33,489 nt of DNA from Solirubrobacterales bacterium (GTDB taxonomy: Bacteria; Actinomycetota; Thermoleophilia; Solirubrobacterales; Solirubrobacteraceae): positions 1-33,489 of the forward strand of contig PLES01000053.1 of assembly GCA_003137075.1 (NCBI GenBank). Direction: 5' to 3'. A program made the position numbers and the translations under genes. Below, piece after piece: positions 2,066-33,158 of this stretch (within the stretch, counting starts at the first letter, position 1; each line of letters begins with the position of its first letter). The notes under the pieces are model-generated. The model worked only from the letters and a program-made list of their open reading frames with translations. It was not told where the DNA came from and did not search any database.

Positions 2066-2111
2066 CTGCAAATCCAACGGGTTACTCACGCTGATCCCGA
2101 GCGGTGGGCGA

Positions 2112-2125: not shown

Positions 2126-2174
2126 AGCCCGTGGATCCTGGGCTCGGAAGTTTTTCTAAAAGTTGAAAATTGAC

Positions 2175-2203: not shown

Positions 2204-2265
2204 GCCGCCCTGTTACTGGTGAGCCGCAGAGGGGCGGCCCGCAGGAGTCCGAAGGAGGAGTGTTG

Positions 2266-5985: not shown

Positions 5986-5990
5986 AAGCC

Positions 5991-12331: not shown

Positions 12332-12380
12332 GCGCGGATCACGTTCTGTTATGCGTCGGTTCGCAAAACGTCGTTGGACA
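12332..12380. promoter_or_regulatory. Copy C of the 49-bp palindromic site, upstream of the DUF1684 gene
   Basis: The right half closely matches the right arm of the 22442-22490 palindrome: 15 of the last 18 bases agree, and the last 10 (TCGTTGGACA) are identical. The left half is poorly conserved but keeps GTT.tGT.ATG-like positions. TTGGAC (12374-12379) at its right end is placed as a -35 box, with a weak -10 near 12398-12403 (GATTCT) and the gene's ATG 38 nt downstream of the hexamer start. The same arrangement occurs at copy B, which supports a shared regulator. Confidence 0.6.
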
Positions 12381-12411
12381 TGATCGTCGCGGTGCAGGAT
12401 TCTCGTGCACT

Positions 12412-13266
12412 ATGAGCACAATCGAGATTTCACAGACGCAGCAAGCCGATTTCGAGCAGTATCTGGAACGCTGGAACGAGGCGCGTGAGACGCGGGAGCG
12501 CCAGCGCCGCGATCCCGACTCGTACATCTCGTACTCATCGTTTCAGAAGCTGAGCGTCGAACCGCGTCGGTTCGACGGCATTCCCGGGGAGTGGCGTCTC
12601 ACTCAAGCTGGGCCAGAGGTGGCGCTTGCCGCTGGTGAGAGCCTCGAGATCGACGGCCAGGTCATCAGCGGCATCCGGGCCTTCGGTCCCAGCCGGGAAC
12701 GTGAGTTCCGTCGCGTCGCGAAGCACGGTGCCGTGGTCCTCGAGCTTTCCCGCCGCGGCGGGCAGGATCTCCTTCGCACCCTGGATCCCGCTTTCGGGGC
12801 GCTTCAGATCGCGCGCTACGACTACACGCCCGCGTACGAGCCCGACACGAAGTGGATCGTCGAGGCTGAATTCATCCCGTTCGAGGAGCTACGCCCGACG
12901 GAGGTGGCGGCCACGATTGGGGGCATCGTCCACGTACATCCGGCGGTTGGCGAGGTCGTCTTCCGGCTCGGCGGCGCCGAGCAGCGGTTGTTGCTACTCG
13001 CGCGTGACACAGCCCAGGCACAGCAGCCCGGCACGGCCTTTGCGACCTTCACGGACGGCACCAGCGGCAGCACCACCGACCGGCACGGCCGCAGCATCGA
13101 GGTCGAGCATCAGGGCATTCGCGGCCCGGTGACCATCGACTTCAACTTCGCGCGCAACATCCAGCGGCCCTACACCAGCTTCGCGCCGTGCCCGCTGACC
13201 GCTCCTTGCAACCATCTTGACGTGGTTGTCGAGGCCGGCGAGCAGCTCCCGGTTTTCCGGGGCTGA
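12412..13266 (+). CDS. DUF1684 family protein
   Basis: 284 aa from ATG 12412. A longer open frame to 12310 would run through the conserved regulatory site and is rejected. It is recognised as DUF1684 by the C-terminal block TIDFNFARNIQRPYTSFAPCPLTAPCNHLDVVVEAGE and the middle FIPFEELRPTEVA region; the N-terminal third is charged and probably helical. It has no signal peptide or membrane segment. The biochemical role of the family is unknown to me; members are often near oxidoreductase genes. The SDR gene starts 15 bp downstream, so the two probably form an operon. With the predicted promoter, the mRNA would start at or next to the ATG (leaderless). Confidence 0.8.
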   Translation: MSTIEISQTQQADFEQYLERWNEARETRERQRRDPDSYISYSSFQKLSVEPRRFDGIPGEWRLTQAGPEVALAAGESLEIDGQVISGIRAFGPSREREFRRVAKHGAVVLELSRRGGQDLLRTLDPAFGALQIARYDYTPAYEPDTKWIVEAEFIPFEELRPTEVAATIGGIVHVHPAVGEVVFRLGGAEQRLLLLARDTAQAQQPGTAFATFTDGTSGSTTDRHGRSIEVEHQGIRGPVTIDFNFARNIQRPYTSFAPCPLTAPCNHLDVVVEAGEQLPVFRG

Positions 13267-13281
13267 GCGCCGCGACGCGAT

Positions 13282-14076
13282 ATGGATCTCGGTTTGGTCG
13301 GAAGGGTCGCCTGGGTCACGGGCGGCGGTGGCGGAATTGGGTCCGCGATTGCCGCCGCCCTAGCGGCGGAGGGTGCGGAGGTCGCGGTCACGGGCCGAAC
13401 TCTGAGCACGCTGGAGCAGCGGGCAACCGCCATCGCCGCCGCGAGCGGTCGGCGTGTGATTGGCATCCCGGCGGATGTCACCGACAAGGGCTCGGTGGAT
13501 CGGGCTGCGGCGGCGATCGTCGAGCAGCTGGGCGGCATCGACATCCTCGTCAACACCGCCGCGACCCCAGCAGGGGGAGGAGCAGCGGCTTCGCTTGAGA
13601 CGACGAGCGATCAACAGATGCTCAAGGACCTTGATGAGAAGGTCGTCGGCAACCTTCGCACTTCTCAGGCGGCCGTCCCCTACATGAAGCAGCGGGGCTG
13701 GGGCCGGCTGATCCACGTCGGCGGGCTGCTCGCTCGGCAGGCCAGTGCCTACGGCCCGCGCAATCTCGCAATCGTCCATCTCTCAAAGCGGCTGTCCGAT
13801 GAGCTCGGATCGCACGGGATCACATCGAACGTGGTGCACCCGGGGGCCACCCGCGGCGCACGGCTGACGGGGTCGCTCATGGCCCGGTCAGCGGCCCGCG
13901 GTATCTCGGAAGCCGAGCTGGAGGCTGAGATCGCGTCCAGCTATGCGATCCGCCGCCTGCTCGACCCAGAGGAGATCGCACACGTCGTGGTGTTCCTCGC
14001 TTCGCCGCTCTCCGGCGCCATCACCGGCGAGTCGATCGGCACCGGCGGCGGCAGCATCGGCACGGTGACGATCTAG
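13282..14076 (+). CDS. Short-chain dehydrogenase/reductase family protein with altered active site
   Basis: 264 aa SDR fold. The cofactor-binding TGGGGGIG (13-20) is intact, and ADVTD and DILVNTAAT blocks follow. The active site is abnormal: Tyr157 is present (SAYGPRN), but the lysine normally four residues later is Asn161, and the usual serine about 13 residues before the tyrosine is missing (region reads IHVGGLLA). The end has the family-typical VVFLASPLSGAITGESIGTGGG. It may bind NAD(P)(H) but work by a modified mechanism or have a non-catalytic role. Second gene after DUF1684, convergent with the ABC operon. The fold is certain; the reaction is unknown. Confidence 0.88.
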   Translation: MDLGLVGRVAWVTGGGGGIGSAIAAALAAEGAEVAVTGRTLSTLEQRATAIAAASGRRVIGIPADVTDKGSVDRAAAAIVEQLGGIDILVNTAATPAGGGAAASLETTSDQQMLKDLDEKVVGNLRTSQAAVPYMKQRGWGRLIHVGGLLARQASAYGPRNLAIVHLSKRLSDELGSHGITSNVVHPGATRGARLTGSLMARSAARGISEAELEAEIASSYAIRRLLDPEEIAHVVVFLASPLSGAITGESIGTGGGSIGTVTI

Positions 14077-14116: not shown

Positions 14117-14959
14117 TCAAACGCTCAGGGTTTCCAGCTCGGCACGTAGCTCGCGGCGCTGCACCCCGTCCAGTGAATGCCCTGAGAGCGTTGGCGTCGA
14201 GCCGATCAGCAGCCGCGTGTACAGGTGCTGCGGCGTGCTCGCGAGCGCCCGCGTCGCGCCATGTTCGACGACGCCGCCGCGGTACAGCACGTAGGTGCGG
14301 TCGGTGATGCCGATCACCGAGCCGATGTCGTGCGAGATGTAGAGCAGGCCGACCGTATCCGAACGCAAAGAGAGGAGCATTTCGAGCACCTGCACGCGTG
14401 TGGCGGCGTCCAGCGCGCTCACGGGTTCGTCAAGGATGATCAGCTTCGGCTGCGTGATCAGCGCCCTTGCAATCGCGGCCCGCTGGCGCTGACCACCCGA
14501 GATCTCTGCCGGGAAGCGATCGAGCAGCGCCTCGTCCAGACGGACCTCTGCGGCCTGGGCGCACACCGCTGCCCTGATCTCGTCCTTGGATAGTCCACCG
14601 CGGATCCGCAGCGGCTCTGAGATCGAGTCGCCGATCTCCACATCGGGGTCGAGGCTACGCAGCGGGTCCTGGAAGACGTACTGCACCACACCGCGCCTGC
14701 GGAAGTCCCGCCACTGCGAGGCTGAGAAGCCGGTTACCTTCTCGCCGGCGACGCTGATCTCCCCCTCTGCGACGCGCGCAAGTCCAAGCACGGCGCGCGC
14801 GATCGTCGTCTTGCCGGAACCGCTCTCTCCGATCAGACCGACTATCTCGCCAGCGTGAACCTGCAGGTCAACGGAGTCAATCACCTGCTTGCGTCCCCGT
14901 CGCCGGCCGTATGCGACGTGGACGTTCTCCACGTTGAGTAGCGCAGTGTTCTCAGGCAA
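14117..14959 (-). CDS. Peptide/nickel-type ABC transporter ATP-binding protein (DppF/OppF type)
   Basis: 280 aa cytoplasmic ATPase and last gene of the leftward transporter operon. Walker A GESGSGKTT (44-52), Q-loop FQDPLRSLDP, signature SGGQRQR (154-160) and Walker B LIILDEPVSALD (D177-E178) are all intact, as is the switch histidine region YISHDIG. DppF-like by its position after a DppD-like partner and by the IGESGSGKTTIARA form. Overlaps the preceding ATPase gene by 8 bp. A weak 5-bp stem-loop (14084-14099) lies between it and the convergent SDR gene. The substrate is probably not a simple peptide, given the monooxygenase gene inside the operon. Confidence 0.92.
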   Translation of the reverse strand: MPENTALLNVENVHVAYGRRRGRKQVIDSVDLQVHAGEIVGLIGESGSGKTTIARAVLGLARVAEGEISVAGEKVTGFSASQWRDFRRRGVVQYVFQDPLRSLDPDVEIGDSISEPLRIRGGLSKDEIRAAVCAQAAEVRLDEALLDRFPAEISGGQRQRAAIARALITQPKLIILDEPVSALDAATRVQVLEMLLSLRSDTVGLLYISHDIGSVIGITDRTYVLYRGGVVEHGATRALASTPQHLYTRLLIGSTPTLSGHSLDGVQRRELRAELETLSV

Positions 14960-15797
14960 CTTGCAGCCTCTCCGACTCGATGATGCGGTCCAGCCCGTAG
15001 CGCTGGTGCTCAGAAATCAGCAGCTTGGTGTACTCGTTGCTCGGCGACTGCAGGACCTCATCAGTGGGGCCGTACTCGACGATCTCCCCGGAGCGCATGA
15101 CGAGCACGTCATCGCAGATCTGCGCGACCACGGCGAGGTCGTGCGAGACGATCACGAGTGACAGGCCTTCGCGTTCCTTGAGTTCGGTCAGCAGGTCAAG
15201 CACCTCGGCCTGGACGGTCACGTCGAGTGCGGTGGTCGCCTCGTCGGCGATCAGGATCTTAGGCCCGGGGGCGATCGCTGCTGCGATCACGACACGCTGC
15301 AGCATGCCGCCGGAAAGCTCGTGTGCGTACTGGTCATAAACGAGTTCAGGGTCGCGAAGGTGCACCGCGCTCAATAGCCGGAGCGTCTCCTGCTTGGCCT
15401 GCTTGCGAGAGAGACCCTTCTTGACACGCAGGACCTCATTGATCTGTTTGCCGAGACGGATCGACGGGTTCAGATAGGAGCCGGGGTCCTGGAATACGGC
15501 TGAGATCACGTTGCCCCGGAGATCGACCCATTGCTGCTTACCAAAGCTGGCGGTATTACTGCCGAAGATCTCGACCGTGCCGTGCGAGAGCTCTACCTGC
15601 TTTGGCAGGATTCCGAGCACGGCAGCGCAGGTGAGCGTCTTGCCGCTGCCCGACTCGCCGACGATCCCGAGGGTGCCGCCGCGGCGCAGCGTGAAGTTGA
15701 CACCGTGAACAAGTTCGCTGTCGGGGAATGTGCAGCGGATCCGTAGATCGCGGACCTGCACCGCGACCTCCTCATGGACTGTAGTTAGATCAACCAA
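14952..15797 (-). CDS. Peptide/nickel-type ABC transporter ATP-binding protein (DppD/OppD type)
   Basis: 281 aa partner ATPase. Walker A GESGSGKT (47-54), Q-loop FQDPGSYLNP, signature ELSGGMLQRV and Walker B ILIADEATTALD are intact; SGGMLQR is typical of DppD/OppD. The start is TTG 15797: a strong ribosome-binding site, GGGAGG, lies 5 nt upstream on the minus strand. The start region overlaps the end of the permease gene by 8 bp, and its own end overlaps the next ATPase by 8 bp, so all transporter genes are tightly coupled. Confidence 0.92.
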   Translation of the reverse strand: MVDLTTVHEEVAVQVRDLRIRCTFPDSELVHGVNFTLRRGGTLGIVGESGSGKTLTCAAVLGILPKQVELSHGTVEIFGSNTASFGKQQWVDLRGNVISAVFQDPGSYLNPSIRLGKQINEVLRVKKGLSRKQAKQETLRLLSAVHLRDPELVYDQYAHELSGGMLQRVVIAAAIAPGPKILIADEATTALDVTVQAEVLDLLTELKEREGLSLVIVSHDLAVVAQICDDVLVMRSGEIVEYGPTDEVLQSPSNEYTKLLISEHQRYGLDRIIESERLQVA

Positions 15798-16704
15798 GTT
15801 CGCCTCCCTTCCGGAGTCCGATGCGTGCTCGAGGCACGCGTGTCACTCGTCCTGCTTTTTTGGCGGCGCGGGCGTTCAGGAGCTGTCGCCCCGCCTCGCC
15901 CGAGACGTCGCGGACCGCGTCCGCGAAGAGGTTGCAGCCGAGCACCGCTGCCAGGATCACCACGACCGGCACCAGCGGCGCCAGCGGTTGGATCGCGATG
16001 TACTGCAGATCCGCGGCAAGGATCCCGCCCCAGGTCGCCGTCGGCGGCTGCACGCCGATCCCAAGGAACGTGAGGCTCGCGATCACGACGAGGCCGGTTG
16101 CCATCGTGGTTGAGAGCGCGATTGAGATCGGGGGCAGGACCTTGGCCAGGAAGTGCTTGCGCATAACCCACGCGGTCGACGCGCCCGATAGCGTGGCTGC
16201 CTCCACGTACTGCGATCGTGCCACCGACAGCGCCGAGGATCGCGCCACCCGGAAGAACACCGGCGAGAGCAGGATGCCCACGGCGAACATCGACTGAACG
16301 ACACCGTTGCCGAGCAGCGCCGTCATCGCGACGGCGAATACAAGGAAAGGCAGCGCGATCATCGTGTCGACGACGCGCAGACTCACCCACTCGAACGCGC
16401 GCCCGAGGTACACGGAGAGCAGCCCCGGGATGGCGCCGACGACGAACGCGATGACGACCACCATCAGTGCGCCCAGAACGCTGAGTGTCGAGCCCGCGAG
16501 CATGCGGCTGAGCACGTCGCGCCCGACATAGTCGGTGCCAAGCAGGTGCGCTCCGGACGGCCCCTGGAGCTGCGCTCCGACCGTGGTATTCGGAGCGTCA
16601 GGGGCTAGCACGGGACCGAAAATCGCGAGGAAGAAGACGATCCCGAGTAGCACCGCGGCTATGCGGCCGCTCGGTACACGTATGGCGTTCCTCAGCATCG
16701 TCAC
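15790..16704 (-). CDS. Peptide/nickel-type ABC transporter permease (DppC/OppC type)
   Basis: 304 aa inner-membrane subunit with about six hydrophobic segments. It has the DppC hallmark near the N terminus (HLLGTDYVGRDVLSRMLAGS) and the ATPase-contacting EAA loop (YVEAATLSGASTAWVMRKHFLAKVLPP). The GTG at 16704 overlaps the upstream permease stop (GTGA); an ATG two codons later is an equally possible start. The C terminus is basic and Arg/Gly-rich. Confidence 0.92.
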   Translation of the reverse strand: MTMLRNAIRVPSGRIAAVLLGIVFFLAIFGPVLAPDAPNTTVGAQLQGPSGAHLLGTDYVGRDVLSRMLAGSTLSVLGALMVVVIAFVVGAIPGLLSVYLGRAFEWVSLRVVDTMIALPFLVFAVAMTALLGNGVVQSMFAVGILLSPVFFRVARSSALSVARSQYVEAATLSGASTAWVMRKHFLAKVLPPISIALSTTMATGLVVIASLTFLGIGVQPPTATWGGILAADLQYIAIQPLAPLVPVVVILAAVLGCNLFADAVRDVSGEAGRQLLNARAAKKAGRVTRVPRARIGLRKGGELG

Positions 16705-17717
16705 GTTCCTCGCGAGGCTGACGGGACGAGGGCGTTCAAGATGACGTTGACGACCATGTTGAAGATGACCACGAGGATCACGGCGACCACCAGCACCGCT
16801 TGGACCGACGGGACATCACCTTGGACCGCGGCCTGAGTCGCGAACTGGCCATAGCCGGAGAGCTGGAATATCGACTCGGTCACGACCGCGCCGCCAAGCA
16901 AGGCCGGGAACTTGAGGCCAAGCACCGCGATCGAAGGGCTGACGGCGTTGCGCAGGGTGTGAACCCAGAAGACACGCCGCCCATTGAGACCGCGCACCAC
17001 GGCGCCCGTGACGTAGTGCTGGCGCTTGGCCGAGACCAGCCCGATCCGCAGCTGGCGGGCAACGTCGGCGACGGTGTCGAAGCTGAGCGCGACCGCGGGC
17101 AGGATGATGTGGCTGAACCACGGCTCGAAACCCTGTCCCAAAGAGACGTAGCCGGCGGCCGGCAGCAGGTGCAGTGAGGTCGCGAAGAGATCGATCAGGA
17201 CGACGCCGACGATGAACGGAGGCAGCGTTGAGATCGTCGCCGAGAGGATCGTCACAAGCCGGTCGACCCAGGTGTTCTGGTAGCGGGCGGCGAGCGCGCC
17301 CAGCGCGAAGCCGAAGACGATGCCGATCAGCAGCGCGAGGCCGGCGGCGGAGAGGGTGATGATCGCCCGCCCCTCGAGCAGTGTGCTCACCGGGTTGTTG
17401 TTGGCCCAGCTCCTGCCGAGATTGCCCGAGAGGACGTGTCCGAGCCACGTGAAGTACTGGTCGAAGAACGGCCGTGTGAGCCCCCACTTCTGCTCGAGTG
17501 CGTGGACGGCCGACAAGCTCGCCCCGTCACCTAGTTGCAACGGTGCCGGGTTCAGCCCGCTGATCGAGCCAAGCAGGAAGGTGAAGAACGAGCCGAGCAG
17601 GAAGACCGGGATGAATGCGGCGAGCAGCCGCCAGATCGCGCCCGCAAACTGGCGCGCGCGGTGGTGGATGAGCAGCGAGCCCCGGCTCGGGGCGCCGGCG
17701 ATCGACACCGTCGCCAT
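16701..17717 (-). CDS. Peptide/nickel-type ABC transporter permease (DppB/OppB type)
   Basis: 338 aa, longer at its N terminus than DppC as usual for DppB. Features are the periplasmic HALEQKWGLTRPFFDQYFTWLGHVLSGNLGRSW region, about six membrane segments and the EAA loop (YVTGAVVRGLNGRRVFWVHTLRNAVSP). The ATG overlaps the stop of the luciferase-like monooxygenase gene by one base (TGATG), so the oxidoreductase and transporter are translated as a coupled unit. The ligand is set by the binding protein at 18853-20436 and is unknown. Confidence 0.92.
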   Translation of the reverse strand: MATVSIAGAPSRGSLLIHHRARQFAGAIWRLLAAFIPVFLLGSFFTFLLGSISGLNPAPLQLGDGASLSAVHALEQKWGLTRPFFDQYFTWLGHVLSGNLGRSWANNNPVSTLLEGRAIITLSAAGLALLIGIVFGFALGALAARYQNTWVDRLVTILSATISTLPPFIVGVVLIDLFATSLHLLPAAGYVSLGQGFEPWFSHIILPAVALSFDTVADVARQLRIGLVSAKRQHYVTGAVVRGLNGRRVFWVHTLRNAVSPSIAVLGLKFPALLGGAVVTESIFQLSGYGQFATQAAVQGDVPSVQAVLVVAVILVVIFNMVVNVILNALVPSASRGT

Positions 17718-18769
17718 CAGCTCACCTTGCTCCGCAGCTGGGGGTAGATCTCGGTGGCGATGATCTCAAGCGCTTCGTCCTGGGCGCTGGAGCCCGCGGG
17801 TGTGTAGGGGAGGTTGAAGAGGTAGGTCGTCGACCGCGCAACGGCGGCGTCGAGATTCAGCGCCTCGACCACGTCGTCAGCCGAGCCAAAGGCGACGTCG
17901 GCTTTGATGAGGAACTCAGCGACAGACTCGGCGTCGAGGCTCTCGGGTCCGAAGGGGTGGCTATCAGGCCGAGCTTCGAAGTCGGCGACCGCGGTCGCAA
18001 TCGCCTGCTCGCGGGACGAGGCGATCAGCAGCGATCGCGAGATCCCGATACGTGGCTGCCCCCCGGAGTGGTCGAACTGCTCAAGGTAGCTGTCGATCAG
18101 CGGCGACTGAACTTCGCCGGCGATCCCGTCTGAGACGGTCCGGAACAACATCAGCCCGTCGCCGGCTCGGCCCGCTGCCACCGCGGTCGCATGGTCGCCG
18201 GTCGCCTGCCAGATACGGTCGAGCAGATCGCCCGCCGGCGGGAATATCGCGACCTCCTTGTCGCCGGCCGGGATCGGCTCGCCGAGCGCGGCCTTCAGCG
18301 CCGCGACAGCGTCGTCGAAGATCTCATTGCGCTTGGCCTCGTCAAGGCCGAACGCGTTGTATGTGTCGGTGGAGAAGCCGCGTGGGTTGCCTTTGCCGAC
18401 TCCGAGCTCAAGACGGTAATCGGACAGCGCGTTGACGATCGCTGCCGTCTCGGCTACCCGGATCGGGTTGTCGAAGGCGAGCGGCACCACGGCCGTGCCG
18501 AGCCTGATGCGATCGGTCGCCTGTGCCGCGGCCGCGAGGAAGGTGAGCGCCGCTGGCAGTGCGATGAGCGGATTGAAGTGGGCTTCTGCAACCCACGCAT
18601 AGGAATACCCGAGGGCTTCAGCGGTCAGGATCGAGTTCAGTGCGAACCGGTAGGTGTCGCGCGGATCGGCGACAGCCGGAGTCGCCAGGAAGATCGATAG
18701 TTCGCCGCGATCGGTCAGGTTCTCGTTGGCGTCGGTTGTGAGGTCTGGGGCTGCGCTGGCGGTGGACAA
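17717..18769 (-). CDS. Luciferase-like FMN-dependent monooxygenase embedded in the ABC operon
   Basis: 350 aa from TTG 18769, which has an AAGGAG (18783-18778) 8 nt upstream. The longer reading from ATG 18811 would start inside a 12-bp hairpin and has no ribosome-binding site, so it is rejected. TIM-barrel LLM motifs: LGYSYAWVAEAHF, DRIRLGTAVVPL, PIRVAETAAIVNALSDYRLELGVGKG, RIWQATGDHATAVAAGRAGDGLMLFRT. This pattern resembles, from memory, the KPN_01858-type LLM family known beside peptide-type ABC transporters. It would use reduced FMN and O2 on the imported compound. No flavin reductase gene is visible in the window, so FMNH2 must come from elsewhere. Reaction and substrate are unknown. Confidence 0.88.
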   Translation of the reverse strand: MSTASAAPDLTTDANENLTDRGELSIFLATPAVADPRDTYRFALNSILTAEALGYSYAWVAEAHFNPLIALPAALTFLAAAAQATDRIRLGTAVVPLAFDNPIRVAETAAIVNALSDYRLELGVGKGNPRGFSTDTYNAFGLDEAKRNEIFDDAVAALKAALGEPIPAGDKEVAIFPPAGDLLDRIWQATGDHATAVAAGRAGDGLMLFRTVSDGIAGEVQSPLIDSYLEQFDHSGGQPRIGISRSLLIASSREQAIATAVADFEARPDSHPFGPESLDAESVAEFLIKADVAFGSADDVVEALNLDAAVARSTTYLFNLPYTPAGSSAQDEALEIIATEIYPQLRSKVS

Positions 18770-18797
18770 GGTCCGTGCTCCTTGGTCTGAAAAGGGG

Positions 18798-18827
18798 CCG
18801 GTGGCGGCCATGCTGGGCCGCCACCGG
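18798..18827 (-). terminator. Intercistronic 12-bp GC hairpin between binding-protein and monooxygenase genes
   Basis: A perfect 12-bp inverted repeat (18798-18809 with 18816-18827, 6-nt loop) follows the SBP stop codon by about 25 nt on the minus strand and is followed by CCCCTTTT. It is probably a partial terminator or a 3'-end stabiliser that keeps binding-protein mRNA more abundant than the downstream genes, a common arrangement in ABC operons. Confidence 0.7.
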
Positions 18828-18852
18828 GATGGTCTAATCGGCGGTTGTGCCG

Positions 18853-20436
18853 CTACTTCACCGTCACGCCGTTCCAGCGGAACACGCCGTCGATCAGCGG
18901 GAAGCCAGAGAACGCTGACGTGGTCGCGTACGCGTTCGGCTCCGTGTAGACCGTGATCGTCGACCCGGTCTCGACGCCGATCTTGGTGAGGTTCTTGAGC
19001 GCTGGCTCATACCCCGCCGCCGTGATCGGGATCGCCAGCAGCTTCTTCTCCGCGGCCGCGAACTGGGCCGTTTCACGCGGGGCGCTCAGGTTCAGGATCC
19101 CGGTACTGCCGTAGTGCTCGTTGAGCGCCTCGACCTTAGAGTCGCGACCGACGTAGCCATAGAACGCGAGCTGGTCGGTCTTGCCGTAATAGCCCGCGTA
19201 GAAAGCGGTGATCGTCTGCGGGACGATCGTCACGTTGATCCCGACAGCCTTGAGCTGCTGCTGTATCAACTCAGGACCGCCGGTGTTCAGCGAAGACACG
19301 AGGTCGAGCGGAACCGAGATCTGGCCTGGCTTGTAACCGGCCTTCGCAAGCAGCTGCTTGGCCTTGGCCGGGTCATAGCTGTAGACGCTGTTGAGTGACG
19401 GGTCGTACGCCGGCGACGTCGTCGGGAATGGCTGTACCGAAGCGGTCGCGACCCCGAAGCCGAGCTGGCTCACCAACTGCTTGCGGTTGATCGCGTCCTC
19501 GACGGCCTGCACGACCAGCGGGTTGTTGAACGGCGCCTTGTTGAAGTTCAAGCTGAGAAAGTCGGCCAACCATCCGGCCGCTGTGTTGGCCACGACCTTG
19601 AGCCCGTCCTTGCGGGCCAAGGAAATGTCCTGTGCGGGCAGGCTGGTGACGAAGTTGTAGGTTCCGCTCTGGAGGCCCGAGAGGACCGTCGCCGGGTTCA
19701 CCTGGAGGAAGAGGTTGACCGTCTGGACGTGTATGTCCTTGGCATCCCAGTAGCCGCTCCACTTCTCGACCGTAAGCTCCGAGTCGGGCACGAGCTTCAC
19801 GAGCTTGAAGGGACCAGCGCCGACCGGATCATCCGAGTTGAGCCCGGCGAGGTTGGCCTTGGCTGCCTTCTCGCTGGCGAGCAAGCTCGTGCGGTTGGCA
19901 AGGATGAAGGGGATCTGGTAGTCGACCTGCGTCAGGTTCAGGCGCAGCTGTGTGGCGCTCAGGACGGTCTCAGACTTGATGTCCGCATAGTCAGCCGTCA
20001 GCGCTGAGTTGGTCTGCGTCTTCGCGCGGTTGATGTCGAACGCGACTGCCGCCGCGTCGAGCGGCGAGCCGTCCTGGAAGGTCAGGCCCTTGCGCAGCGT
20101 GATCGTGACCGCGGTACCTGCCGAGTTGTACTTGTAGCCGGTCGCCAGCGCAGGCTCGATCTCGCCCTGCGCGTTGAGCGTGAAGAGCGGCTCATAGATC
20201 AGAGATAGAAGCTGGGTGGCAGACGTGGCGCCAACGACAACCGGATCCCAGTCGGGCTCGTCGGAGTAGTAGCCCCAGTTGACGGTTGCGCCCGTACCGG
20301 TCGACGCTGAGCTACGCAACGCGCTGTTGGCCGCTGCGGACGACCCGCCGATCGCGGCGATCGCCACGTAGGCGGCCAAGATGGCCGCCGAAACGGCGAA
20401 CGTCCGGATCGGACGGCGTAGCAGATATCTCTTCAT
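18853..20436 (-). CDS. Family-5 (peptide/nickel-type) ABC transporter substrate-binding protein
   Basis: 527 aa exported binding protein, first gene of the leftward ABC operon. The N terminus MKRYLLRRPIRTF is followed by a hydrophobic stretch to about residue 36 (SSAAA-NS), a signal peptide without lipobox cysteine. SBP_bac_5 landmarks: SLIYEPLFTLNAQGEIEPALATGYKYN, ITLRKGLTFQDGSPLDAAAVAFDINRA, GAGPFKLVKLVPDSELTVEKWSGYW and a C-terminal hydrophobic-aromatic patch. TAGGAG lies just upstream of the ATG. It lies downstream of copy A of the palindromic site. The association with flavin monooxygenases suggests a small organic ligand rather than a normal peptide; this is inference. Confidence 0.92.
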   Translation of the reverse strand: MKRYLLRRPIRTFAVSAAILAAYVAIAAIGGSSAAANSALRSSASTGTGATVNWGYYSDEPDWDPVVVGATSATQLLSLIYEPLFTLNAQGEIEPALATGYKYNSAGTAVTITLRKGLTFQDGSPLDAAAVAFDINRAKTQTNSALTADYADIKSETVLSATQLRLNLTQVDYQIPFILANRTSLLASEKAAKANLAGLNSDDPVGAGPFKLVKLVPDSELTVEKWSGYWDAKDIHVQTVNLFLQVNPATVLSGLQSGTYNFVTSLPAQDISLARKDGLKVVANTAAGWLADFLSLNFNKAPFNNPLVVQAVEDAINRKQLVSQLGFGVATASVQPFPTTSPAYDPSLNSVYSYDPAKAKQLLAKAGYKPGQISVPLDLVSSLNTGGPELIQQQLKAVGINVTIVPQTITAFYAGYYGKTDQLAFYGYVGRDSKVEALNEHYGSTGILNLSAPRETAQFAAAEKKLLAIPITAAGYEPALKNLTKIGVETGSTITVYTEPNAYATTSAFSGFPLIDGVFRWNGVTVK

Positions 20437-20517
20437 TCCAAGCTCCTAGAAGTCTTTCTCGATCGGTCCGCTGCGCATCGCGAAGGCAGACCGGGTTGGG
20501 TTCACAAGTATCTTGAC

Positions 20518-20581
20518 CGACTTAGTGGAGATTGTCTAAACACGTTTCATGATTCCGCTCATCACAAAACATGGTCGAACG
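20518..20581. promoter_or_regulatory. Copy A of the palindromic site with flanking 19-mer, upstream of the SBP gene
   Basis: 20533-20581 aligns without gaps to the palindrome at 22442-22490 with 34 of 49 identical positions. The adjoining CGACTTAGTGGAGATTGTC (20518-20536) is identical in both places and overlaps the first four bases of the palindrome. Here the two arms match each other imperfectly, so an RNA hairpin is not conserved, which favours protein binding to DNA. On the minus strand TTAGAC (20539-20534) sits where copy B has its TTGGAC, about 100 nt upstream of the SBP start codon. The remaining intergenic DNA (20437-20517, 20582-20644) shows no other feature. Confidence 0.75.
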
Positions 20582-20644: not shown

Positions 20645-22384
20645 TCACGCCTCGATGGCGACCCCGTCACGGTCGGTGACGGCACCAAGCACGCGGTCGA
20701 ACACAGCAGCCGAACCGCCCTCGGGTAGCTCCTGGCCGCGCCAGGCGACGTGTTGGTCGGGCCGGACCAGAACGACACCCGCTCCGTAGACGTCGAGCGC
20801 GTCGGGATCGGTGAGGTGGACGACCCGGAGCCCGATGGAGCGTTCGAACGCCTCCGTCACGAACGTCCGCTCCAGCTCGCCAGCATCGCCGAGCACAACC
20901 AGCCCGAAGTCGTTGCCGAGCCGGTCGTAGAGGGTCGTGCCGAACGGGTCGATGACGCCGTCCGGTGCGCGGTGCCCAGGGCGCGGGTCATCCTCGTAGA
21001 GGTCATGTCGCCACGGCGCCTCTTGCTCGAGCTGTCCGTCCTCGTACCAGATCGCCGGCGAGGCGTCGTAGCGCTCATCAAAGCTGATTCCCGGGCCGAA
21101 TCCGCTGGTCGTGGCGATCCGTTCGGAGATCTCGGCACGGCGCTGCTGTGCCGCCTCGCTGAGATCGGAGTCCTCTGGGATACCCTCGCGCCTGATCTCC
21201 GCCAGCATCGCCTCGGTGCGGCGAGAGAAGTCGAGCGCGTGGTCGGCGACCCGCCAGTTGTGCCGGCGCCGCTCGGCGTCGTAGGAGTCGAGCAGCGCGG
21301 CCGGCGCCTGCCCGTTGATCACCGCGGCAAGCTTCCAGCCGAGGTTCACGACATCGCCGAAGCCTTCTCCGAGGTTGCCGCCCGGAGTACGCACATGCGC
21401 AGCGTCGCCGGCGAGCACCACCCTGCCTTTGCGAAATGTCTCCGAGATACGGGTCGCGTTGTAGAAGGTCGTCGCCGAAACGAGCTCTAGGTCAAGGTCG
21501 AAGCCGAACGCGGCCTTGGCCACGTCGAGTAGCTCCTCCTCATTCGGTTCGTAGTCGAGCGGATACGGTCCCGCGTAGATCCTCCACTCGCGGGCGCTGA
21601 TGGCGGCAAGGAAGCCCGACGCCTTGTGGTTGAAGACGATGTTGGTCGCACTCGGGGCGGGGCCGACCCGGTCTGCGATGTCGCCGGTGCGAACCACCAG
21701 CCGCAGGCGCTTCTGCTCTGCGCGTTCACCCTCGCGTTCGATGCCGGCGAGTGAACGGACGGTGCTGCTGCCCCCGTCGGCCCCCAGCACGTACTGAGCC
21801 CGGATCCGGCGTCGCTCGCCGGTCTCTGTCTCGACCAACTTGGCGACGATGTGCGACTCCTTCTCGATCAGAGCCTCTAGCCGCCAGCCGCCGGCGACCG
21901 TCACGCCGCGCTCGCCAAGGTGGTCAAGGAAGACCTTCTGCAGCGCGGTCTGTGGTCTGCGCAACGCCTCGGCGAAGGGGGAGCGCGCGCCGTTGCGCTG
22001 CGTGAAGGACGGCCTGCGCACGGGCACCAACTCATGGCCGACCAACGACGTTGCCAATACGATGCCGCGGTTCCACTCAGGCGGGAAGGTCCACTCCTCG
22101 CGGATCCGGTGAAGCAGGCCCCAGCGCCTGAAGTGCTCGACCGTCCGGGGATTGTGGCCCATCGCACCCGCACGGATCAGCTCCTTGAAGCGCACCGTGT
22201 CCACAACCGCCACGTTGATCCCCCTGCCGTTGAGCTCGATCGCTGCGGAGAGCCCGACCGGTCCGGCGCCGATGACGAGCGCGTCGACCTCCCATGGGGG
22301 CGGTTCTGTCGGGAATCGGACGGTGTGTACGTCACGGTCACCGGTCGCATGACGCTGGTGCTCAGACACGGTGTAGTCGGTCAC
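20645..22384 (-). CDS. FAD-dependent monooxygenase (aromatic hydroxylase family, PheA/MhpA-like)
   Basis: 579 aa from GTG 22384 (MTDYTVSEHQRH), which has a GAGG about 8 nt upstream. ATG 22417 has no ribosome-binding site and may lie upstream of the transcript start; the open frame up to 22471 runs into the palindrome. FAD_binding_3 motifs: GAGPVG (39-44), the DG motif VLGADGGSSTVRSLAGI, and the GD motif VVLAGDAAHVRTPGGNLGEGFGDVVNLGWKL. The last about 150 residues resemble the thioredoxin-like C-terminal domain of phenol-hydroxylase relatives (VVLVRPDQHVAWRG). It probably hydroxylates an aromatic or unsaturated ring using NAD(P)H and O2. Divergent from the FMN-monooxygenase operon across the shared palindrome. 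Substrate unknown. Confidence 0.88.
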   Translation of the reverse strand: MTDYTVSEHQRHATGDRDVHTVRFPTEPPPWEVDALVIGAGPVGLSAAIELNGRGINVAVVDTVRFKELIRAGAMGHNPRTVEHFRRWGLLHRIREEWTFPPEWNRGIVLATSLVGHELVPVRRPSFTQRNGARSPFAEALRRPQTALQKVFLDHLGERGVTVAGGWRLEALIEKESHIVAKLVETETGERRRIRAQYVLGADGGSSTVRSLAGIEREGERAEQKRLRLVVRTGDIADRVGPAPSATNIVFNHKASGFLAAISAREWRIYAGPYPLDYEPNEEELLDVAKAAFGFDLDLELVSATTFYNATRISETFRKGRVVLAGDAAHVRTPGGNLGEGFGDVVNLGWKLAAVINGQAPAALLDSYDAERRRHNWRVADHALDFSRRTEAMLAEIRREGIPEDSDLSEAAQQRRAEISERIATTSGFGPGISFDERYDASPAIWYEDGQLEQEAPWRHDLYEDDPRPGHRAPDGVIDPFGTTLYDRLGNDFGLVVLGDAGELERTFVTEAFERSIGLRVVHLTDPDALDVYGAGVVLVRPDQHVAWRGQELPEGGSAAVFDRVLGAVTDRDGVAIEA

Positions 22385-22426
22385 TGGGACTGCCTCGTTT
22401 CTCGATGTTTTCTGCATAATGTTGAG

Positions 22427-22490
22427 CGACTTAGTGGAGATTGTCCAACGATGTTTCGTGATGAGGCTCATTACGAAACATCGTTGGACA
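22427..22490. promoter_or_regulatory. Copy B: 49-bp near-perfect palindrome with flanking 19-mer between divergent monooxygenase genes
   Basis: TGTCCAACGATGTTTCGT (22442-22459) and its exact complement (22473-22490) flank an inner ATGAG/CTCAT pair centred on 22466, with one mismatched pair. CGACTTAGTGGAGATTGTC (22427-22445) adjoins and overlaps the left arm. Both arms end in TTGGAC hexamers pointing outward. On the plus strand TTGGAC (22484-22489), a 16-bp spacer and CATAAC (22506-22511) form a promoter whose start would be at or next to the ATG at 22521. No T-run follows either arm, so this is read as an operator overlapping two divergent promoters. Confidence 0.85.
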
Positions 22491-22520
22491 GGACCCGCCC
22501 GTACTCATAACCCTGTAGAG

Positions 22521-23897
22521 ATGGAGCAAAGGAAACTCAGGGTCGGGACCGTCCTGATGGGCGTGGGTGGGCCTGGGCAACACAACACCTGGCTGGACCC
22601 CGAGATCCCGACCGACGCCAGCGTCGACATCTGGTGGTACATCGCGAGAGCCCAGGAGGCCGAGGCCGCCAAGCTCGACTTCATCTTCATCGCCGACAGT
22701 CAATTCATCACGGCTGACTCACCGAACCACTACCTCAGCCGGCTGGAGCCGCTGACCTTGTTATCGGCGGTTGCCGTCCACACACGGCACATCGGCCTGG
22801 TGGGAACGCTGACAACCTCCTACAACGAGCCGTTCAACTTGGCGCGCAGGCTGGCGTCTCTCGACCACATCAGCGGCGGCCGCGCGGCGTGGAACGTTGT
22901 GACGAGCGGCGATGCCGGAACGGCTGGGAACTACAGCCGCGACGAGCATTACGACTACGAGACCAGGTATGGACGCGGCCTTGAGTCGGTCCGGGTGGCG
23001 CAGGGCCTCTGGGACTCGGACGAGCCCGATGCCTTCCCTCGAGACACCGAGCGCGGAGTCTTCTTCGACCGTACAAAGCAGCATGCGCTGAACCACAAAG
23101 GCGAGTTCTTCTCCGTGGCCGGGCCACTCAACCTCGAGCGCATGCCTCAAGGCCAACCAGTCATCTTCCAGGCCGGCGATTCGCCCGAAGGAAGAGAACT
23201 GGGCGCTGAGATCGGCGAGGTCATATTTACCTTCCAGCCGACCATCGAGGCTGCGATCGCGTTTCGGACGGAGATGCGCGAGCGCGCCGAGCGCAAGGGA
23301 CGCAACCCGGATCACATCCTGATCGCGCCTGGGATCTCCGCGATCCTGGCCGAAAGCGACGAGCAGGCAAGGGCCCGGCAGGACGCAATCTTTGGCGCCA
23401 AGAGCTTTGACCGCGCCCTGGCTGAGCTAGGGAGACCATTCGGCTGGCACGACTTCAGCCAGTACGAACTCGACGCCCCTTTCCCGGATCTGCCGGATGA
23501 GATCGGAAGCAACAGCTTCAGGTCTCATGCCGGGGCGATCAAAAAGCTGGCGCGCGACAACAAGCTCACGCTCCGTGAGGTGGTGCAAGCGCAGATCGAC
23601 TCCGGTCGGTCCCCGTTCGTCGGCTCACCGCAGACCGTCGCCGACCAGATCCAGAAATGGTTCGAGGCCGGGGCGTTTGACGCGGTCAACTTCTTCGGCA
23701 CCACCCCGCAGGACTACGAGCTGTTCCTAGGCGTGGTGGTCCCGATCCTGCGTGAACGCGGAGTCGTCCGTAGCGACTACATGGCCAAGACGTTGCGCGG
23801 GAACCTCGGACTCCCGATCCCCGAGAACCGCTACACAGCGGCGCGAGGCCGGTCAGTTGATCGCGCGCCTGACGCCGAGATGGCCGCAATCCACTGA
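22521..23897 (+). CDS. FMN-dependent monooxygenase, NtaA/SnaA/DszA family (first of two paralogues)
   Basis: 458 aa from ATG 22521; the upstream extension of the open frame crosses the palindrome and is rejected. TIM-barrel flavin monooxygenase of the nitrilotriacetate/dibenzothiophene-sulfone monooxygenase type: MGVGGPGQHNTWLDP, FIFIADSQFITAD, LEPLTLLSAVAVHTRHIGLVGTLTTSYNEPFNLARRLASLDHISGGRAAWNVVTS, then VIFQAGDSPEGRELGAEIGEVIFT. Such enzymes oxidise the substrate with FMNH2 supplied by a separate reductase, often cleaving C-N or C-S bonds. There is no ribosome-binding site, and the predicted promoter places transcription start at the ATG. Strongly similar to the next gene over its whole length. 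Substrate unknown. Confidence 0.92.
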   Translation: MEQRKLRVGTVLMGVGGPGQHNTWLDPEIPTDASVDIWWYIARAQEAEAAKLDFIFIADSQFITADSPNHYLSRLEPLTLLSAVAVHTRHIGLVGTLTTSYNEPFNLARRLASLDHISGGRAAWNVVTSGDAGTAGNYSRDEHYDYETRYGRGLESVRVAQGLWDSDEPDAFPRDTERGVFFDRTKQHALNHKGEFFSVAGPLNLERMPQGQPVIFQAGDSPEGRELGAEIGEVIFTFQPTIEAAIAFRTEMRERAERKGRNPDHILIAPGISAILAESDEQARARQDAIFGAKSFDRALAELGRPFGWHDFSQYELDAPFPDLPDEIGSNSFRSHAGAIKKLARDNKLTLREVVQAQIDSGRSPFVGSPQTVADQIQKWFEAGAFDAVNFFGTTPQDYELFLGVVVPILRERGVVRSDYMAKTLRGNLGLPIPENRYTAARGRSVDRAPDAEMAAIH

Positions 23898-23941: not shown

Positions 23942-25312
23942 ATGTCAAGAAAGCTTCATTTCGGTCTTCATCCCTACGGCGTTGGCGGCCCCGGCCAGGA
24001 CGGTCTCTGGAAGGACCCGCGCATCGCCAAGAACGCGAGCATCGATATCGGTTACTACATCGAGCAGGCTCAGATCGCCGAGCGGGGGCTGTTCGACGCG
24101 TTCTTCATCGTCGACAGCCAATTCATCAATGCGGACTATCCGGCGCACTACCTGAACCGGCTGGAGCCGCTGACGCTGCTCTCTGCCGTGGCCACCCACA
24201 CCAAGCACATCGGCCTGGTCGCGACCATGAGCTCAACCTATAACTCGCCGTTCAACCTCGCTCGCCGGGTGCTCTCGCTCGACCACATCAGCGGCGGACG
24301 GGCGGGCTGGAATGTTGTGACGAGCTTCGACTCACAGGTGTCGAAGAACTTCGGTCTCGACGATCACCTTGATTACGGAACCCGCTACGACCGTGCGCTT
24401 GAATTTGTCAACGTCGCGCGTGGACTCTGGGAGTCCTACGAGGACGATGCGTTTCCGGCAGATTTGCAGAGCGGGGTCTTCCTCGACCGCGACAAGCTCC
24501 ACGCGCTCAACCATGTGGGAACGCATCTGAAGGTTGCAGGACCGCTCAACCTCTCACGTTCCCCTCAGGGCGAGCCCGTGATCTTCCAGTCCGGCATGTC
24601 TGAGGAAGGGCGGGATCTCGGGGCGCGGACCGCCGAGGGCATCTTCAGCCATGCGGGAACGCTCGAGGAGGGGCAGGCGTATTACGCGGACGTCAAGCAA
24701 CGCGCGGCGCTGCTCGGCCGCAACCCTGACCACATCGTGATCCTCCCGCACGGTGGCCCGGTCGTCGCCGAGACCGATGCAAAGGCACACGCCCGCGCAC
24801 GTGAGATCTACGAGGAGGACAACGACTTTGAGCGCAAGCTCGGATTCCTTGGCCGTGCGTTCGGTGCCTACGACTTCAGCCAGCATGACCTCGACGATCC
24901 GTTTCCGGACCTCACCCACCTAACCGAGCGCGGGGGCCGGCGCGGCGCTGAGATCGTCTCTGATGCTCAGGCGAATGGCTGGACCCTTCGCCAGACGGTC
25001 GAGGCAACCTCTGCTTATAAGCCGAGCCCGTTCATCGGTTCGCCTGAGACCGTCGCCGACTCCATCCAGAAATGGTTTGACGCACGCGCGATAGACGGCC
25101 TGAACCTGGCGTTCCGGGTCACCGAAGAGCTCGAGTACTTCATAGACAGCGTGATCCCGATCCTGCAGCAGCGCGGGCTCTACCGCACTGAGTACGAGTC
25201 CACGACCCTGCGAGGCAATCTCGGCATCCCGATTCCGCAGAATCCCCACGCCGGTGCCGGCCACGGTGAGTCGTCCGCGTCGGTCCGTGCCGTCGACCTG
25301 GCTGGGGTCTGA
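23942..25312 (+). CDS. FMN-dependent monooxygenase, NtaA/SnaA/DszA family (second paralogue)
   Basis: 456 aa, ATG 23942 with GGAG about 10 nt upstream. It has the same domain and block order as the preceding gene (GVGGPGQDGLWKDP, FFIVDSQFINADYPAHYLNRLEPLTLLSAVATHTKHIGLV, LDHISGGRAGWNVVTSFDSQVSKNFG, VIFQSGMSEEGRDLGARTAEGIFSHAG), so the pair arose by duplication. Differences in the barrel-top loops suggest the two act on different substrates or successive steps. A 6-bp hairpin (23907-23922) sits in the 44-bp gap between the paralogues. The hydrolase-like gene starts 2 bp after its stop. Confidence 0.92.
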   Translation: MSRKLHFGLHPYGVGGPGQDGLWKDPRIAKNASIDIGYYIEQAQIAERGLFDAFFIVDSQFINADYPAHYLNRLEPLTLLSAVATHTKHIGLVATMSSTYNSPFNLARRVLSLDHISGGRAGWNVVTSFDSQVSKNFGLDDHLDYGTRYDRALEFVNVARGLWESYEDDAFPADLQSGVFLDRDKLHALNHVGTHLKVAGPLNLSRSPQGEPVIFQSGMSEEGRDLGARTAEGIFSHAGTLEEGQAYYADVKQRAALLGRNPDHIVILPHGGPVVAETDAKAHARAREIYEEDNDFERKLGFLGRAFGAYDFSQHDLDDPFPDLTHLTERGGRRGAEIVSDAQANGWTLRQTVEATSAYKPSPFIGSPETVADSIQKWFDARAIDGLNLAFRVTEELEYFIDSVIPILQQRGLYRTEYESTTLRGNLGIPIPQNPHAGAGHGESSASVRAVDLAGV

Positions 25313-25314: not shown

Positions 25315-26094
25315 GTGTCGACCGTCACAGCGTCGGGCTATCTGGACTTCACCGAACCCGCCGGACTCAAGCCTCGTGGCACGCTGTTGGTGCTGCCGGG
25401 ACGCGGTGAGTCTGCCAGTACCTACAGCCGGTTCGGCAGCCGCATCTCGGCCGACTCGTATCGCGTCCGCGTGCTGGAGAACGTGACCGGGAGCTCGCCC
25501 GACGCGGCGCTCGATCCTGTCCAAGCTGCCCTTGCGACGGCCGTCGCCGACCTTGGAGACGACCTGATCAGGCCGCTCGTGCTGGTGGGCAGCGACGCGG
25601 CGGCGGCGGTGTTGCTAGCCGCGGTCGGCGATGCCGACCCGCAAGCTGCGTGGTGGCCGGACGCCCTCGTGCTCGCGGCGCTGCCCGGATACGGGGAGCA
25701 CGAGATCGGCGATCAGTGGGAGTCCGAACTCGACGTACGGACTCACTGCCCGGTCCATCGTGGCGTATTGAGCAACGACGAGTTGCTTGACCGCCAGAGC
25801 ATCTCCGCGGCGGTCGCCGATGAGTTGCTGGACCAGGCCTACAAGAGCCGCGCCGAGCTTCCCCAGCTGTTGTTGGTCGGGGATGCAGATCCACTTGCCG
25901 ACCGCGCGGCGCTCGCCGGCTTGGCCCGCGCCCTGCCGGCTGCGCGTCTCTCGGTCGTCCGCGGAGGCCATCACGACGTCCTCAACGATCTTCAGCACCG
26001 GTCGGTCGCGGCGGAGATCGTGAGTTTCCTGGAGGCCCTGCGGGACTCGACGCCACTCGTGCCGCTGGTGCGCGTGGAGTCGTCGGCATGGTGA
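25315..26094 (+). CDS. Alpha/beta-hydrolase-fold protein with non-canonical nucleophile elbow
   Basis: 259 aa, GTG start 2 bp after the preceding stop, so translationally coupled. Fold landmarks: strand plus oxyanion region LLVLPGRGESASTYSRFG (about 24-41), elbow region LVLVGSDAAAAVLL (88-101), an acid-loop-like LLLVGDADPLADRAAL and a histidine near the end (VRGGHHDVLND). At the elbow the usual G-x-Ser-x-G reads G92-S93-D94-A95-A96, placing aspartate at the nucleophile position and replacing the last glycine. It could be an Asp-nucleophile enzyme, use Ser93 after a shift, or be non-catalytic. Context suggests it processes a monooxygenase product. Family assignment is moderately secure. Confidence 0.75.
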   Translation: MSTVTASGYLDFTEPAGLKPRGTLLVLPGRGESASTYSRFGSRISADSYRVRVLENVTGSSPDAALDPVQAALATAVADLGDDLIRPLVLVGSDAAAAVLLAAVGDADPQAAWWPDALVLAALPGYGEHEIGDQWESELDVRTHCPVHRGVLSNDELLDRQSISAAVADELLDQAYKSRAELPQLLLVGDADPLADRAALAGLARALPAARLSVVRGGHHDVLNDLQHRSVAAEIVSFLEALRDSTPLVPLVRVESSAW

Positions 26095-26233: not shown

Positions 26234-27118
26234 ATGAATAAGGTTCTGGATATCACGCCGCTGCGAAGCTTCGTTGCTGTGTGCGACTGCGGTGGTTTCC
26301 AGCGCGCCGCCGCCACTCTCTATCTCAGTCAAGCTGCAGTGAGCCAGCACGTTCGTCGTCTTGAGACTGCGCTCGGTCGGCCGCTTGTGCAGCGACAGGG
26401 GAGAGGTTCGACATTCACTCCCGACGGTGAAAAGCTGCTTGTGCAGGCGAGGCAGATCCTTGATGCGCACGACCATGCCTTGCTGTCGTTCAACGCCGAG
26501 GAAGTGCAAACGCTGCGGGTCGGCTCGACTGAGCACGCTGCCGATCGGTTGCTGCCACGGCTACGGCAGGCGCTGATGGAGCGCCTGCCTGACCGCGAGT
26601 TGCACTTCCGCGTCGATCGCGGCGCCCACCTTCGAGACGAACTCTCCGGGGGTCGCCTCGACATGGCGCTGCTGTTCGGGCCGGCTGACGAGTTGGAGGC
26701 GACCCCCGTCGGTACGCTCGACCTGACCTGGTACGCGTCGCCGAGCTGGACCCACGACCCAGACGTGGTCCCGATCGTCGCGTTCGACAACCCATGCGCA
26801 ATCCGGAACCGTGCGATGGAGACCCTCGAAGCTCATGGGATAGAGGCGGCCGTGACCTGCGAGGCTCCTCACCTGCTGGGGGTTCAAGCCGCAGTTCGCG
26901 CCGGGATCGGCATTGCGCTGCTGGCAACACAGGCCCCGTACCCCGAGGGGCTTGTGCCGGTCGAGAGCCTTCCCGCCGCCGAACCGATTGAACTGTTCCT
27001 CTGGGCGCGCCAGGGCTTCGACCGCGAGCTCAGCGAGGGTACCGCCCATGTGCTCAGAGGCCTGGCTGCGCCTGCACCTGAGCTGCCGCCAGCTGAACTC
27101 CTTCCGCAGGCGGCCTGA
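26234..27118 (+). CDS. LysR-family transcriptional regulator
   Basis: 294 aa from ATG 26234 (MNKVLDITPLRSFVAVCDCGGF). The upstream extension to 26204 would begin inside the promoter and is rejected. Winged HTH at about 5-64 (FQRAAATLYLSQAAVSQHVRRLETALGRPLVQRQGRGSTFTPDGEKLL), then a LysR substrate-binding domain (LRVGSTEHAADRLLP, LDMALLFGP, GVQAAVRAGIGIALLA). Its promoter shares an element with the flanks of the palindromic sites, so it is a candidate regulator of the monooxygenase/ABC genes, though a 49-bp palindrome is not a usual LysR site. Lacks a clear ribosome-binding site; probably near-leaderless. Confidence 0.92.
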   Translation: MNKVLDITPLRSFVAVCDCGGFQRAAATLYLSQAAVSQHVRRLETALGRPLVQRQGRGSTFTPDGEKLLVQARQILDAHDHALLSFNAEEVQTLRVGSTEHAADRLLPRLRQALMERLPDRELHFRVDRGAHLRDELSGGRLDMALLFGPADELEATPVGTLDLTWYASPSWTHDPDVVPIVAFDNPCAIRNRAMETLEAHGIEAAVTCEAPHLLGVQAAVRAGIGIALLATQAPYPEGLVPVESLPAAEPIELFLWARQGFDRELSEGTAHVLRGLAAPAPELPPAELLPQAA

Positions 27119-27169
27119 ACGCGGCGTCAGCCGTTGTCGTTCGCCCAGATCCGAGAGAAAATCGAAGCC

Positions 27170-27748
27170 ATGTCACAAGAAGACCTCGCTGCGCAGGACA
27201 TCACCCAAGCGGCTAACGACGCGTGGCACCGTGACATGCCCGGCGACTCGCCGGCTGACAACGGTCACGGTGGTTCGCATGACCATCTGCCGCTTTGGCA
27301 GAAACCTCTGCATCACGTCAAGGCGGGGACCTTGGACGCGAACACGGGTCAGACCAAGGGCATGAAGCGCTTTGAGGCGCTCTCCCGCAAGCACGGCGGT
27401 ACCGAGAAGATCTGGCTCGGCGAGAACCACGTCGGCCCGCAGATGAAGTCCGGTGACCATCACCACGGCGAAGCCGAGACCGGCATCTACATCGTCTCCG
27501 GGCATCCAGAGTTTGTGTTCCTGCAGGACGGTGAGGAGCGGCGGATCGAGACCGGTCCGGGCGACTACATCTTCGTGCCGCCCTATGTGCCCCACCGCGA
27601 GGAGAACCCGCACTCCCAGCCGGCCGTGGTCGTGCTTGCCCGCAGCACGCAGGAGGGGATCGTCGTCAACCTGCCGAGCCTCGACACCCCGGTCGAGATC
27701 CCGCCGGACGGCAACGCCTTCCCGGCGGACGAGTCGGCCTGCGACTAG
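27170..27748 (+). CDS. Cupin-domain protein
   Basis: 192 aa from ATG 27170. A single cupin barrel lies in the C-terminal two thirds: metal-binding block HHHGEAETGIYIVSG (cupin motif 1: His-x-His, then Glu and Gly) and motif 2 GDYIFVPPYVPHREEN with the last histidine ligand. The N-terminal about 60 residues are His/Asp-rich (DNGHGGSHDHLPLW) and could bind metal. It starts 51 bp after the LysR gene on the same strand, so it may be its co-transcribed neighbour. It could be a small dioxygenase, isomerase or sensor; the function is not determinable. Confidence 0.85.
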   Translation: MSQEDLAAQDITQAANDAWHRDMPGDSPADNGHGGSHDHLPLWQKPLHHVKAGTLDANTGQTKGMKRFEALSRKHGGTEKIWLGENHVGPQMKSGDHHHGEAETGIYIVSGHPEFVFLQDGEERRIETGPGDYIFVPPYVPHREENPHSQPAVVVLARSTQEGIVVNLPSLDTPVEIPPDGNAFPADESACD

Positions 27749-32682: not shown

Positions 32683-33158
32683 CAGTCAAGGTCCCAGCCG
32701 AGCGACCAGTCCTGCTCGGGCACCTCGCCCGCCGCATCCGCAAACGCCCGTAACGCTCGCACGACAGGTTCCCGGTCAGCCGCCGGCATCCGTTCCACGA
32801 TCGCCGCGATCTCAACCCGCCGCCGTCGGCTCACCTCAGCGACTAGCTCGGCGCCCGCGGCGGTCAACGAGACCCGGACTGTTCGGCGATCGTCTTGCGC
32901 GCGGCGGCGGGCAACGAGACGCTTACGCACCAGACGGTCACACATGCGAGTCGCCGTAGAGCGATCAACGCCGATAGCGGTGGCGAGATCAGCGAGGCGC
33001 TGCGGCCCACGTGACGCCAGCACGATCAAGAACCGGTACTGGGGCAGCGTCACATCCTCGGCGAGGTTCGCCAATGATCGCGCCGCGACCGCCACCAGCG
33101 CACGACTGGACCCCAACACCGCATCAACCAAATCATCCCGATTTGACCTGGCGCTCAT
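32682..33158 (-). CDS. MarR-family transcriptional regulator
   Basis: 158 aa winged-helix regulator. The HTH (LADLATAIGVDRSTATRMCDRLVRKRLVARRRAQDDRRTVRVSLTAAGAELV, about 55-106) and the DDRR wing are typical. ATG 33158 has GGAGGG just upstream on the minus strand. The stop overlaps the ClC start (TGATG), so the regulator and channel are one operon. A pair of TTGCACATA repeats lies in the divergent gap and may be its binding site. The ligand is unknown; MarR proteins usually sense small phenolics or oxidants. Confidence 0.93.
   Translation of the reverse strand: MSARSNRDDLVDAVLGSSRALVAVAARSLANLAEDVTLPQYRFLIVLASRGPQRLADLATAIGVDRSTATRMCDRLVRKRLVARRRAQDDRRTVRVSLTAAGAELVAEVSRRRRVEIAAIVERMPAADREPVVRALRAFADAAGEVPEQDWSLGWDLD

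Follow-up and report, generated by a model that had tools for sequence, protein, structure and literature searches.

Gene content of the locus and its palindromic sites

The stretch of DNA analyzed here, referred to as the window, comprises 33,489 nucleotides of a Solirubrobacterales contig (PLES01000053.1) and carries a catabolic-looking gene block between 12.3 and 27.7 kb. On the plus strand, this block contains LLM1 (22521..23897), an NtaA/DmoA-family FMN monooxygenase scoring above the TIGR03860 cut-off, followed in the same operon by LLM2 (23942..25312), also an NtaA/DmoA-family monooxygenase, and an alpha/beta hydrolase (25315..26094). Next to these are a LysR-type regulator with HTH_1 and LysR_substrate domains (26234..27118; ATG at 26234, the listed open reading frame running from GTG 26204) and a cupin protein (27134..27748), which is a neighbor of LysR in several Frankia too. 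LLM1 is similar to YtnJ, and nothing useful for LLM1 was found in the literature on YtmI/YtnJ. The minus strand encodes a RebC-like FAD monooxygenase (20645..22384) and an operon of SBP_bac_5, LLM3, two permeases and two ATPases (14117..20436), forming an oligopeptide-type ABC importer, while a DUF1684 protein and an SDR are encoded on the plus strand (12412..14076). The longest open reading frame of the FAD monooxygenase starts within the palindrome described below (ATG 22471); its start is probably GTG 22384, and thus 22471 is likely not genuine. Elsewhere in the window (937-9861) is a complete arabinose-type block, unrelated to the palindrome, with a LacI regulator, a sugar ABC importer, AraA, an FGGY kinase and a class II aldolase.

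In 60 near relatives, the best match among orthologues of the FAD monooxygenase had 33% identity, and among 399 genomes of its own class only one LysR orthologue was found (45%), lacking the core of the site. With neither protein having close counterparts in near relatives, the block is accessory, and therefore no footprint of the site is possible in those relatives.

The divergent FAD monooxygenase and LLM1 genes are separated by a 49-bp palindrome, TGTCCAACGATGTTTCGTGATGAGGCTCATTACGAAACATCGTTGGACA (site B, 22442-22490, no assigned strand), a putative two-way operator-promoter with the layout TGTCCAACGA-TGTTTCGT-GATGAGGCTCATT-ACGAAACA-TCGTTGGACA. Just as the initial annotation had described, it consists of perfect outer arms of 18 bp, one mismatched pair, inner arms of 5 bp and a single central base, with 23/24 pairs matched; when the window was shuffled 60 times by a Markov model, the top palindrome of this length averaged 16.4 pairs and reached 19 at most. 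The left arm (22442..22459, minus strand) and the right arm (22473..22490, plus strand) are identical at 18/18 positions, and ACGA-N4-TCGT occurs once in each, 25 bp apart.

Two diverged copies accompany site B: site A (20533..20581, minus strand), the predicted promoter site of the importer operon, and site C (12332..12380, plus strand), that of DUF1684-SDR. The initial annotation had placed A correctly, but its identity to B is 35/49 by our count rather than 34/49. Site C matches B at 29/49 positions in the given orientation and at 30/49 when reversed, and both copies exceed the best unrelated 49-mer match within the window (26/49). For C and for the relatives, comparing plain 49-mers is too coarse, and promoter-oriented half-sites perform better. 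Scored against the outer core, both arms of B and the plus arm of C reach 10/10 and the minus arm of A 7/10, whereas the gene-less arms are degraded (A-plus 6/10, C-minus 3/10), a contrast that in A is weak taken alone. In site C, it is mainly the right arm that is intact, including a perfect TCGTTGGACA, and the left side faces an HD-GYP gene. This degradation explains why the copies, C in particular, had earlier appeared half-conserved.

The likeness of A and B extends beyond the palindrome. Their 17-nt spacers on the minus-promoter side (20516-20532 and 22425-22441; ATCTCCACTAAGTCG[CG]T) are identical at 16/17 positions and thus better conserved than the palindrome itself, indicating either a recent promoter duplication or an extra constraint on the spacer. 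Given these shared bases, A is partly a duplicate of the leftward promoter of B and was, judging from the sequence, probably made by copying it; because the duplicated stretch is common to both, their likeness alone is no proof of function. The copies had been regarded as unlinked except by regulation, and of this claim the regulon stands but the independence of A does not.

Association of the site with a LysR family

A search with LLM1 led to a Frankia homologue (72%) with ATAACGAAGCGTCGTTGGACA upstream, divergent from a LysR gene whose product is 55% identical to that of the window. Among 35 Frankiaceae genomes we found 19 LysR orthologues (53-57% identity), and in every case an LLM1 homologue (73-79%) is encoded divergently. 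When a matrix was derived solely from the window's four promoter-facing half-sites, its best match per locus fell in the LysR-LLM1 intergenic region in 19/19 of these loci, mostly scoring 21-26 bits compared to 4-15 bits for the next best match; the weakest case was locus L102 (14.6 vs. 11.7). Conversely, a matrix derived from Frankia alone ranked B-minus first in the window (29.8), followed by B-plus (25.9), A (12.4) and C (5.6). The score of C barely exceeds the background, and those of A and C are within the range of the best matches in shuffled windows, and hence only B is strong by the Frankia matrix alone. As C ranks only fourth, it is the least certain of the sites, and its membership in the regulon is probable but not certain.

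The association extends to another genus of the same phylum, whose more distant LysR homologues (42-46%) have the core TCGTTGGAC upstream in 29/30 loci, although these 29 loci are mutual relatives rather than 29 independent events. The 6.6 kb lying upstream of the LysR homologues contain the core 30 times (the 29 loci and one Frankia locus), compared to twice in 119.6 kb of other sequence from these loci, and the extended pattern with three mismatches occurred once in six of seven genomes of this genus and twice in the seventh. One genome of this genus (L098, G543:C1:2821736, and L101) has a second LysR-site copy 2.5 kb away, before another gene. A Pseudonocardia plasmid LysR (51%) likewise has TCGTTGGACA at the corresponding place. 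In a second group of Frankia LysR genes (L122-L124 and L127-L130; 44-50%), the divergent partner encodes a homologue of the alpha/beta hydrolase found in the window (35-44%), and some members of this group carry the core variants GCGTTGGACA or TCGTTGGCC.

The site was not found with LLM1 relatives in Glaciihabitans, Novosphingobium and Pseudomonas, in genomes without a LysR orthologue. These relatives (L025-L033) lie partly within related importer clusters, also lacking both LysR and the site, and such enzymes thus occur independently of LysR regulation. The expectation of the initial annotation that orthologous genes would be preceded by the site therefore holds for the LLM1 orthologues alongside LysR, and its candidate regulon now has a named regulator, the LysR of the same block. 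Searching the literature, we found no link of TCGTTGGAC to any LysR-type transcriptional regulator (LTTR), the best-ranked papers containing the string being unrelated, and nothing on the Frankia LysR-LLM1 cluster.

Promoter layout and interpretation of site B

In the Frankia sites, the dyad centers precede the end of TTGGACA by 36.5 and 12 nt, and ACGA-N4-TCGT in the two arms of B occupies the matching places. At the 36.5 register, T-N11-A is present in 19/19 Frankia and 27/29 loci of the other genus, but this distal-dyad motif is kept at that register in none of the window sites. A -10-like NANNNT is found 17 or 18 nt past the -35 box in 19/19 Frankia and 29/29 loci of the other genus. Assuming that transcription starts 7 nt past the -10 box, the Frankia dyads would be located at approximately -66 and -42 relative to this predicted start, with the proximal dyad at the -35 box. 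Dyads at -65/-66 (IR1) and -43/-44 (IR2) are described for OxyR, IlvY and CynR (PMC5002191). The right arm of B has the register seen in the Frankia LysR-LLM1 intergenic regions; its ACGA-N4-TCGT, the putative promoter-proximal LTTR dyad, overlaps TGGACA, the predicted -35 box of the LLM1 operon, and the left arm is the same element mirrored, containing the predicted -35 box of the FAD monooxygenase gene.

Applying the spacing rule of the relatives to the window, NANNNT lies exactly 17 nt past three of the four gene-facing arms: CAACAT for the FAD monooxygenase (22419..22424, minus strand; N17 from TGGACA), CAAGAT for the SBP operon (20510..20515, minus strand; N17 from TAGACA; ATG 20436) and GATTCT for DUF1684 (12398..12403, plus strand; N17 from TGGACA; ATG 12412). 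The GATTCT hexamer is also present at identical spacing in a second Frankia LysR locus. For LLM1 the predicted -10 box (22508..22514, plus strand) is either TAACCC at N17 or AACCCT at N18; it is the poorest of the set and would make the transcript near-leaderless (ATG 22521).

These comparisons establish, at the level of sequence, the site itself, its tie to the LysR family and its promoter-like layout and spacing. We consider it likely that two divergent units share the palindrome as their operator-promoter, controlled by LysR 26234-27118, the proposed binder of A, B and C. The gene of this regulator lies in the block, 4 kb from the palindrome, and its orthologues adjoin the site in 19/19 Frankiaceae loci. 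A LysR tetramer would occupy B as two dimers, one on each arm and approximately 25 bp apart, a layout that suits the guess of two dimers made earlier from the length of the palindrome. At either promoter, activation would take place at the near arm, which overlaps the -35 box TGGACA, and recognition at the far arm, at approximately -66. Since B is mirror-symmetric, these roles would swap for the opposite promoter, and owing to this swap one bound complex should be able to switch on both sides: rightward LLM1-LLM2-hydrolase-LysR-cupin, with LLM1 as the target conserved in Frankia, and leftward the FAD monooxygenase. Sites A and C would be one-sided forms of the site, A for the ABC-importer operon and C for DUF1684-SDR. 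The inducer of such activation would probably be the substrate taken up by the importer or a metabolite derived from that substrate.

How the two-sided arrangement may have arisen is suggested by the Frankia loci. In L132, L134 and L136, LysR and the site are followed by LLM1-SBP-permeases-ATPases-LLM2-FAD-LLM3 in one direction with a single site, and in one of the three a hydrolase follows LLM3. Shorter Frankia regions comprise LLM1 and the importer (L140) or LLM1 and the hydrolase (L138), while L141 runs off its contig. In the window, the genes of the Frankia operon are split into separate units with their own copies of the site. Each Frankia site is one-sided: toward LysR, nothing resembling the TGTCCAACGA arm is present (at most 4-6 of 10 positions match). 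We infer that the Frankia arrangement is the older state. A more specific proposal, for which we hold the chances to be even, is that B is an LTTR operator with mirror symmetry, each arm acting as recognition site of one promoter but as activation site and -35 box of the other, a single tetramer firing both ways, and that it arose by break-up of a one-operon regulon, as in Frankia, and doubling of a one-sided site into its mirror image.

The one-sidedness of the Frankia sites also agrees with a simpler reading, according to which LysR activates only the LLM1 side, the left arm became its mirror image by chance or mutation, e.g., through hairpin-templated quasipalindrome correction, and the FAD gene is either simply repressed or not regulated at all. 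The 18/18 identity of the arms indeed looks templated rather than slowly selected. However, it is the left arm that has the better -10 box at the right spacing (CAACAT), the Frankia FAD gene is within the same LysR-controlled operon, and copy A, which keeps the minus arm and spacer of B, precedes the importer operon. We therefore find one-way activation rather improbable.

Perfect palindromes suit many dimeric regulators, and the window encodes LacI (937-2034) and MarR (32682-33158), either of which, or a product of a gene elsewhere in the genome, might own the operator. This is much less probable still, as the site tracks the LysR family in Frankiaceae, another genus and Pseudonocardia, even with a different divergent gene. 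On paper, B could form a long hairpin, such as a terminator, an attenuator or a riboswitch-like element, but B lies upstream of both predicted -10 boxes and would not be transcribed from those promoters, no T-run follows the palindrome, and the pairing of the arms is lost in A and C (self-match 26/49 and 24/49, compared to 46/49 in B) while the gene-facing arm sequence is kept. An RNA element is thus hardly credible, in line with the initial annotation, which had taken the lost complementarity in A to indicate a DNA site. A REP, MITE or recombination site spread regardless of genes would account for three copies in one block, with A and B partly duplicated, but we consider this mainly refuted and scarcely tenable, since each copy lies just 5' of a gene start in promoter-facing direction, the site is at the corresponding position in other bacterial families, and the 3.86-Mb genome has no copy elsewhere, a scan for the arm with at most one mismatch returning only B (twice) and C, and one with three mismatches giving the same count as the reversed-pattern control.

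Comparison with known LysR-type systems

Taking the LysR-controlled, two-way operator-promoter as the preferred reading, a catabolic-looking block of three LLM monooxygenases, a RebC-like hydroxylase, an ABC importer and DUF1684-SDR gains a candidate regulator, predicted promoters and a testable regulon, in which the DUF1684 protein can tentatively be placed. The window and Frankia can also be compared with regard to how the regulon evolved, with one operon and one one-sided site in Frankia versus, in the window, several units with mirrored and copied sites. Judged on these comparisons, the LTTR regulon is real and well supported; it is ordinary in kind, while its mirror-symmetric operator is unusual, and we did not find a mirror-symmetric LTTR site in the open-access literature.

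The closest named model, also among solved structures, is the LrhA-type LTTRs, with similarity over most of the LysR protein (E 5e-30). However, the window LysR scores 123 bits, below the family cut-off of 530, and is thus not LrhA, the function of which is unrelated as far as known. The operators of OxyR, IlvY and CynR (PMC5002191) resemble the sites described here in having two dyads for two dimers, with the proximal dyad at approximately -42 touching the -35 box. In the relatives only, the likeness includes a distal T-N11-A dyad at approximately -66 and the divergent gene arrangement, the regulator being divergent from its target in all close relatives. In contrast, the window LysR gene is co-directional with its target operon and located at the end of it, T-N11-A is not kept at the register of the relatives in the window sites, the dyads are spaced by approximately 24.5-25 bp instead of 22 bp, and B is mirror-symmetric and would serve two target promoters. 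Control of divergent promoters is known for ThnR, an LTTR that activates the close divergent catabolic PB/PC promoters of tetralin genes and several further promoters (PMC4834489). Like the proposed role of LysR, the ThnR gene is itself in a target operon; however, ThnR uses a separate primary site per promoter, whereas here one palindrome would serve both.
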